The notes under the pieces are model-generated. The model searched no databases and was not told the origin of the DNA. It saw only the letters and a list, made by a program, of their open reading frames with translations. From the NCBI GenBank assembly GCA_022843605.1, contig JALHNI010000008.1, forward strand, positions 1 to 64,000: a DNA stretch of 64,000 nt, in the 5' to 3' direction. Below, piece after piece: positions 15,625-16,996 of the stretch. Each line of letters opens with the position of its first letter. Position 1 is the stretch's first letter. This DNA comes from Bryobacter sp. (GTDB taxonomy: Bacteria > Acidobacteriota > Terriglobia > Bryobacterales > Bryobacteraceae). The position numbers and the translations under genes were made by a program.

Positions 15625-16050
15625 TCAGTCAGCGGACGTATGGTCGAGCGTCATCTTCCAACCTTGCTTGGTGCGAGTGAAGATGAGCGTGTATCGGCCA
15701 CCGGCATTGCCACCGCCTTCCGCGGTGCGCGCGAGATGAAAACGTCCGAGCACCCAGGCATGGTCCTTGCCGAGCGGATGCACTTCAACTTCTGAGAAGG
15801 TGAGCTGTCCCATGGAGGCGGGTGTGGGATAAGTTTTCAGGTAACGATCGAGGGTCGCTTGCCATCCGCGAGCGACTTGTTTGCCGACGAAGGTGAGCTC
15901 GGGAGAGTTCACATACTCCTGCATGAAAGAGCGGATGTCGCCGCGGTTCCAGGCGGCTTGTTGACGAGCGAGCACGGCTTTGATTTCAACTTCAGCGGAA
16001 GCGCCCTGCAAGAGGCCCGCCAGCACCCAGGAGCAGAAGAACAATCTCAT
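15625..16050 (-). CDS. Secreted SnoaL-like/DUF4440 (nuclear transport factor 2 fold) protein
   Basis: A 141-residue protein with signal MRLFFCSWVLAGLLQGASA followed by a cone-shaped NTF2-like domain: VLARQQAAWNRGDIRSFMQ at the first helix and a strand-rich second half ending with GRYTLIFTRTKQGWKM. Such domains can bind small ligands or act as hydrolase/isomerase; no catalytic residues can be assigned. The start ATG 16050 is preceded by TATCGT at 6 nt. It is convergent with the kinase gene and ends 17 nt from it. Confidence 0.75.
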   Translation of the reverse strand: MRLFFCSWVLAGLLQGASAEVEIKAVLARQQAAWNRGDIRSFMQEYVNSPELTFVGKQVARGWQATLDRYLKTYPTPASMGQLTFSEVEVHPLGKDHAWVLGRFHLARTAEGGGNAGGRYTLIFTRTKQGWKMTLDHTSAD

Positions 16051-16153
16051 GCCCCTACGATAGAGGATTGCGAGAGAGAGGTGGGTGAGCATCGGGAGGG
16101 AAGGCGGAAAACGTCGTTTTTGTTGGGATTTTTGCGATGAAGGTGGGCAGCAA

Positions 16154-16181
16154 AAGAAAAAGCCCCACTTCTGTGGGGCCC
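16154..16181 (-). terminator. Rho-independent terminator of the small Lys/Ala peptide gene
   Basis: On the minus strand a GCCCCAC/GTGGGGC 7-bp stem with a 4-nt loop (16162-16179) is followed by a TTTTTCTTTT run. It lies 37 nt after the small peptide gene stop and is a textbook intrinsic terminator. Confidence 0.85.
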
Positions 16182-16217
16182 TCTCCTGTCTGACTCTCTT
16201 TCGAGAGCTTCGAACTA

Positions 16218-16283
16218 CTACTTCTTCTTAGCAGCCTTTTTGGCCGGAGCCTTTTTCGCTGCCTTCTTGGTCGCGTTCTTCAT
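16218..16283 (-). CDS. 21-residue Lys/Ala-rich basic peptide (histone-tail-like)
   Basis: The reading frame from ATG 16283 to TAG 16218 encodes MKNATKKAAKKAP followed by AKKAAKKK, 21 residues with 11 lysines and 7 alanines. GGGAGAA lies 7 nt upstream of the start, a strong promoter (TTGACA-17-TATACC) lies further up, and an intrinsic terminator follows, so this is a complete transcription unit rather than a chance frame. The composition resembles the C-terminal tails of bacterial histone H1-like proteins (HctB, AlgP), which bind nucleic acid non-specifically. A nucleoid or RNA-binding function is inference. It is too short for most gene callers. Confidence 0.7.
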   Translation of the reverse strand: MKNATKKAAKKAPAKKAAKKK

Positions 16284-16310
16284 CGAACCATTCTCCCTAA
16301 CATCAAAATT

Positions 16311-16328
16311 GCGATCAGGTCTGATCGC
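16311..16328. promoter_or_regulatory. Palindrome in the leader of the small peptide gene
   Basis: GCGATCAG-GT-CTGATCGC is a perfect 8-bp inverted repeat. It sits 13 nt downstream of the minus-strand -10 hexamer and so just inside the predicted transcript, 28 nt upstream of the start codon. It may be a repressor operator or an RNA hairpin. Confidence 0.5.
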
Positions 16329-16340
16329 GTATGTGATCCA

Positions 16341-16369
16341 GGTATAAAAGGTTTTGGTAGTAATGTCAA
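16341..16369 (-). promoter_or_regulatory. Consensus-like sigma-70 promoter of the small peptide gene
   Basis: On the minus strand, TTGACA (16369-16364), a 17-nt spacer and TATACC (16346-16341). The -35 is perfect consensus and the spacing ideal, which is rare in this GC-rich region and suggests strong expression. Confidence 0.75.
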
Positions 16370-16453
16370 GAAGAAAAACGTTGATGTTCGAGGGCTTGAT
16401 GAAGGTGCCGAAAACGAAAAAACGCTAGAGACTACAATTGTTTTAGAGGACCC

Positions 16454-16996
16454 ATGCGCACACTTCTCTGGATGGTGTTTTGCAGCTCAATATTCATGGT
16501 GGGATGCGGCAAGAAGAGCGCTCCGAAAACAGCGTCGATGCCGCGAGTGAAGATCGGATACGAGCAGCGCGGCGTCGCGAGTTGGTACGGAAATCCTTAC
16601 CATGGGCGCGCGACGGCGAGTGGTGAGATCTATGACATGGAGAAGTTCACCGCGGCGCATCAACGCTTGCCGTTCGGCGTCACGACGCGAGTGGAGAATC
16701 TGACGAACGGCAAGAGTGTCGATGTGAAGATCAACGATCGAGGTCCCTTCGTCAAGGGCCGGGTGATCGACTTGTCGCGTGCTGCGGCACGCAAGATCGA
16801 TCTGCTGGGACCAGGCATCGTGAAGGTGCGATTGAAGGTGATCGATGCGCCGGCGAGAGTGCGAGCCGAGGCACAAGGCGAACGCAGGGGACGTTTTGCG
16901 TTTCTCTTGCACCCCCTCCGTTCGCGCCGCCCACTCGACGAACGAGAAATCATCCTCACGCTGCGTCCGGCGGACGACGGGACGACGGCCGAGTAG
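16454..16996 (+). CDS. rlpA: RlpA-like septal ring lipoprotein (double-psi beta-barrel)
   Basis: A 180-residue lipoprotein. The signal MRTLLWMVFCSSIFMVGC ends in a lipobox-like VGC with Cys18 as the lipidated residue. The double-psi barrel follows: GVASWYGNPYHGRATASGE, later FGVTTRVENL and KINDRGPF..GRVIDLS, which contain the conserved His and Asp of the lytic transglycosylase active site in RlpA. It probably cleaves naked glycan strands at the cell wall. There is no C-terminal SPOR domain; the tail is Arg-rich. AGAGGA lies 3 nt before the ATG, and a possible -10 TACAAT is at 16433. Confidence 0.9.
   Translation: MRTLLWMVFCSSIFMVGCGKKSAPKTASMPRVKIGYEQRGVASWYGNPYHGRATASGEIYDMEKFTAAHQRLPFGVTTRVENLTNGKSVDVKINDRGPFVKGRVIDLSRAAARKIDLLGPGIVKVRLKVIDAPARVRAEAQGERRGRFAFLLHPLRSRRPLDEREIILTLRPADDGTTAE

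Follow-up and report, generated by a model that had tools for sequence, protein, structure and literature searches.

The window analysed here, 64,000 nucleotides of Bryobacter sp. DNA from contig JALHNI010000008.1, carries on its minus strand, at 16154-16369, a complete small gene for a 21-residue peptide rich in lysine (Lys) and alanine (Ala), MKNATKKAAKKAPAKKAAKKK. Comparison with related genomes gives good support for a class-wide, mostly single-copy conserved gene: its frame is coding, its leader forms an RNA hairpin and its product changes in length between genomes. The peptide is proposed, with moderate confidence, to be an independent, disordered polycation that binds to nucleic acid or polyphosphate much as a histone H1 or HupB tail would, and to be the product of a stand-alone and probably well expressed gene. 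A sequence-only reading of the window had described a complete transcription unit with a promoter (TTGACA-17-TATACC), a GGGAGAA ribosome-binding site, a 21-codon frame and an intrinsic terminator. All four parts are present on the minus strand, and both the conservation of the cassette across the class and selection at the codon level support such a unit. Frames this short usually go unannotated, and a gene of most Bryobacteraceae (the family of the window, a major one among soil bacteria) and of many other members of the class may have escaped notice; a literature search by sequence strings and terms found no paper on it.

Conservation and coding of the frame

The frame runs from an ATG at 16283 to a TAG stop (16218..16283, minus strand) behind the ribosome-binding site (16291..16297, minus strand), and it encodes 10 Lys, not the 11 originally claimed. 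A DNA search of 61 genomes gave matches in 40, some being merely Lys/Ala-coding DNA. Thirty-six units were taken from these matches, one per genome, each with its -35 box 82 to 92 nucleotides (nt) ahead of the ATG. The sequence-only reading had staked the unit on a frame conserved with synonymous changes, and this is what was found: codons 2 to 8 hold 63 single-base differences from the commonest codon, and 54 of them are synonymous against an expected 20.6%. The 36 units are mutually related, so the p-value of this test is too favourable, though the direction of the effect is plain. Outside the family, a Lys-rich frame of 11 to 26 residues stands behind GGGAGA or a close form in all 33 distinct units inspected (for example, MATKKKAKKKKKH, MKKKAAKKKKK and MKCATKKPAKKKAKKK); the inspection looked for a Lys-rich frame at that place, and every locus had one. 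On these comparisons the frame is coding, because synonymous changes dominate codons 2 to 8 and the Lys-rich frame is kept in every non-family unit inspected. A check on 20 more matches spread over the family likewise found a Lys-rich frame in all 20 (19 by script), the twentieth locus having a long repeat protein at the corresponding position.

Scanning named genomes for a sequence pattern added at least 119 stretches, 117 of them holding such a Lys-rich frame; two Pseudomonas stretches with 150-residue frames were rejected as chance matches. Since the pattern itself dictates the opening codons and the ribosome site, the independent evidence lies in a TTGAC at the right distance, a Lys-rich C-terminus and a terminator. 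The DNA search and the pattern scan together gave 155 rows, which after removal of the 2 chance matches, 22 duplicates and 2 with short upstream sequence left 129 distinct units, among the matches listed mainly from Bryobacteraceae with a few from other families. The promoter of the window consists of a -35 box, TTGACA (16364..16369, minus strand), and, after a 17-nt spacer, a -10 box, TATACC (16341..16346, minus strand), which reads TATATA in most relatives. TTGAC is invariant across the 36-unit alignment and absent at the expected distance in only 2 of the 129 distinct units, while TATATA follows the -35 box by exactly 17 nt in 110 of them. All 129 encode Lys/Ala-rich, low-complexity products without acidic residues, as expected of bacterial histone H1-like proteins. 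Their composition is 48% Lys and 30% Ala with no Asp or Glu, and hydrophobic residues other than Ala are nearly lacking.

The sequence-only reading had suggested looking for the unit in related genomes. A covariance model of the promoter, leader and eight codons (R1) matched 183 of 200 genomes of the family (134 of 140 in the good-quality subset), nearly always once per genome. Among 299 genomes of the class R1 matched 90, comprising 64 of 67 from the family and 26 of 232 others. A second model (R2) was built from 17 units of family f11; its automatic structure pairs promoter with leader bases, which is impossible in RNA, and R2 was used as a sequence profile. In a class sample of equal size it matched 71 non-family genomes, which with 4 found by R1 only gives 75 of 232 if the two samples are the same draw, as is assumed here. 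This figure rests on model matches, the frame having been inspected in 33 distinct non-family units, which cover a minority of the class matches found by R2 only. Among 297 genomes of the phylum R2 matched 26, every one within the class.

The product measures 11 to 27 residues in most genomes. The whole range extends from 11 to more than 90, since in some related genomes the same cassette drives long AAAPKK-repeat proteins (52, 76, 79 and 87 residues, and one of more than 90). Because products of such different length stand behind one cassette, the short peptide and the H1-like repeat proteins are states of one kind of locus, and the graded series offers a natural experiment on the origin of H1-like repeat proteins. 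In genus g8 (L207-L212) a long Lys/Ala-repeat protein follows a related hairpin leader that contains TTGATTGGGAGAATC, and a different upstream sequence replaces the usual promoter.

The leader hairpin and the terminator

The leader contains the inverted repeat GCGATCAG-AC-CTGATCGC (16311..16328, minus strand), which the sequence-only reading had reported as a perfect 8-base-pair (bp) palindrome. The repeat is there, and it is best read as an RNA hairpin, of 7 bp with a 4-nt loop, close to the predicted 5' end of the message and kept by compensatory changes. Transcription is predicted to start near 16334, about 6 nt ahead of the hairpin. In the 36-unit alignment 94% of the hairpin cells pair, and pairing falls to 25-41% when the partner is slid along. 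Twenty cells are altered on both sides of the hairpin, against a shuffled mean of 4.3 and none of 500 shuffles as high; the number of pairs changed on both sides (four) is unexceptional, since 126 of the 500 shuffles reach it. Within family f11 pairing reaches 88% of cells, and 15 double changes occur. The leader has a stem of 7 bp or longer in 123 of the 127 units with a placed -35 box (15% of shuffled leaders) and in 29 of 33 non-family units (8% of shuffled leaders), and the majority of stems begin 7 to 12 nt past the -10 box, not far from where the message starts.

A reading of the palindrome as a DNA operator is disfavoured because its arms vary together, the loop differs in length and many different stems occur; a protein site may nevertheless use the conserved GCGATC core. 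Hairpins near the start of a message are known to protect messenger RNA; a literature search on such protection found nothing. Many f11 leaders (L178-L198, L205) carry a second hairpin just ahead of the ribosome site (for example, TTCCAT...ATGGAA or CGATG...CATCG).

Downstream of the frame lie a small hairpin (16193..16208, minus strand), between the stop codon and the terminator, and the strong intrinsic terminator hairpin itself with its T-rich 3' side (16154..16187, minus strand). A terminator-like stem follows the stop in 122 of the 124 units with enough downstream DNA and in all 33 non-family units, under a lenient criterion that 231 of 620 shuffles also pass.

Proposed function and alternatives

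The near-consensus promoter would give a transcript of about 180 nt with the hairpin at its 5' end, where it probably protects the message; the strong ribosome site would initiate a Lys/Ala frame without acidic residues, and the intrinsic terminator would end the transcript. The free peptide would act as an H1 or HupB tail does, unattached to a protein body, its lysines neutralising and bridging polyanions, chromosomal DNA first and possibly RNA or polyphosphate. On the analogy of HupB and AlgP, DNA or polyphosphate would be the likely partner. The comparative evidence agrees with a disordered polycation maintained for its charge and its flexibility, and a range from 11 to more than 90 residues would be expected if selection acts on these properties and not on a fold. 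Should the peptide bind DNA, the tail of a chromatin protein would here be separated from its body, and one could test how short a natural chromatin peptide can be. A broader proposal is offered tentatively, namely that the class holds a family of free 'histone tails' that, at 11 to 13 residues in the shortest members, are among the smallest products dedicated to compacting DNA or organising polyphosphate, and that the ancestral cassette also yielded full-length H1-like proteins by repeat growth.

Support from the window sequence alone is modest to moderate, because a formal scanner listed neither the promoter (TATACC fails its rule) nor the terminator of the unit and the folding of the leader does not stand out from that of shuffled sequences (z -0.45); in this single sequence the hairpin is the centroid structure, not the minimum-energy fold. 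The scanner called the leader hairpin terminator-like, and an Rfam 15 scan of the window at gathering score returned a tRNA only, sub-threshold matches over the unit lying far below the cut-offs. The reality of the unit is settled by comparison across relatives, through promoter spacing, terminator-like stems and leader stems. Several observations weigh against the polycation reading, the unremarkable fold of the leader among them. Family f3, of the same order, had no match among the genomes tested. In genus g54 the frame is gone from three genomes (G066, G176 and G202; loci L199, L200 and L201), which keep the promoter, hairpin (weak in G202), GGGAGAA and terminator and whose flanking genes make them orthologous to the intact loci of the genus; three more (G121, G210 and G222) show no match. 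The peptide is therefore dispensable in g54, where the frameless loci would represent either a recent loss or an RNA with its own function. These relics are a natural experiment on the loss of such proteins.

A trade-off between the free peptide and the tail of HU was looked for and rejected, a further point against the polycation reading. The genome of the window encodes an HU protein with a Lys/Ala tail, and tails of this type span 5 to 32 residues in the genomes compared. Those of g54 show no clean relation to the frame, measuring 23, 32, 11, 17 (second copy 8), 18 and 11 residues in genomes without an intact frame and 26, 7 (second, contig-end copy 8), 9, 12 and 14 residues in genomes with one. 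Elsewhere in the genome of the window, L005 (G000:C119, minus strand 1441-800) encodes a 213-residue protein with an acidic N-terminus and Lys/Ala repeats at its end. Within it, GGGAGA and an ATG precede MKFATKKAAKKAPAKK, a stretch much like the peptide, which may reflect a fusion or a second start inside the frame.

It is unlikely that the product is instead a small ribosome-associated or RNA-chaperone peptide with ribosomal RNA, not DNA, as its target. Such a role would agree with the size, the charge and the vertical inheritance in one copy, but low complexity and a very variable length are unlike a peptide in a fixed ribosomal site. Moreover, comparing four peptides of 21 to 79 residues, including that of the window, with Pfam and NCBIfam gave nothing below an E of 0.1, although peptides so short rarely score. 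PF00216 (HU fold) did not match the peptide either; it matches the HU protein encoded in the window's genome at 5.1e-23.

Rather improbably, the gene could act through its transcript, a small RNA that has a hairpin at its 5' end, leaves GGGAGAA exposed and ends in a terminator, the frame being secondary or the gene bifunctional. The high conservation of the leader and the three g54 loci that retain every other part without the frame point this way. However, the synonymous pattern and the retention of all 33 inspected frames across families with very different leaders argue for translation, and the g54 relics may be decaying, in a genus where three other genomes lack any match.

The neighbouring genes give no clue to function. 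Inside the family, an RlpA-family gene recurs upstream of the unit (59 of 129 loci), and a convergent gene, which presumably encodes an S-adenosylmethionine-dependent methyltransferase of the MidA/NDUFAF7 kind, ends close downstream (58 of 129 loci). In the window the place of the latter is taken by a DUF4440/SnoaL-like gene (15625-16092) in the same direction as the unit. Gene order was rejected as a functional clue because neither family neighbour was found within about 1.5 kilobases on each side of 34 non-family loci, a control search detecting both genes. An AAAACAATT-type element (window 16413-16446, reverse strand; plus strand ATTGTTTTA) lies just ahead of the RlpA-family gene (16454-16996), which diverges from the unit. 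Loci with RlpA have the element more often (22 of 59) than loci without it (4 of 69), so that it is probably part of the RlpA promoter.

A secreted antimicrobial or toxin would be strongly cationic and very small, as this peptide is, but is highly improbable: hydrophobic residues besides Ala are almost absent, no recurrent transporter or immunity gene was recognised among the neighbours, the gene is mostly single-copy across a class, and DNA comparison with phage and plasmid collections gave no match to the unit. A lysine attenuator, in which Lys codons ahead of a terminator couple a downstream gene to the level of charged tRNA-Lys, would suit a short frame rich in one amino acid and, in the window, the co-directional gene at 15625-16092. 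It is rejected as next to negligible on neighbour orientation, since, of 82 loci, 71 have their nearest recurrent downstream gene (within 600 nt) pointing toward the unit and 2 have it co-directional (9 farther away), no family downstream gene was found beside the unit at the 34 non-family loci, and frames of 76 to more than 90 residues are unsuited to such a role.

Comparison with known systems

The likeness to a free histone H1 tail drawn in the sequence-only reading is apt, given the similar tail fused to HU in the same genome and the AAAPKK-repeat proteins behind the cassette in relatives. Kinetoplastid histone H1 is likewise an H1-like Lys/Ala tail without a globular domain; unlike the peptide, it is eukaryotic, longer and encoded by several gene copies. 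In mycobacterial HupB, a PAKK/KAAK tail is required for nucleoid association (PMC5676037). HU proteins of the HupB/HupS type (Mycobacterium, Streptomyces) share the H1-like tail, as does the HU of the window's genome, but in the present case a gene of its own encodes the tail, with no HU domain attached. The KPAA-repeat tail protein AlgP of Pseudomonas associates with polyphosphate granules and DNA (PMC9239181). AlgP joins an N-terminal domain to a long tail, whereas the products here have 11 to 27 residues in most genomes. In Lys/Ala/Pro low-complexity composition the peptide resembles both AlgP and Chlamydia HctA/HctB, and the expanded forms of the gene appear similar to these proteins.
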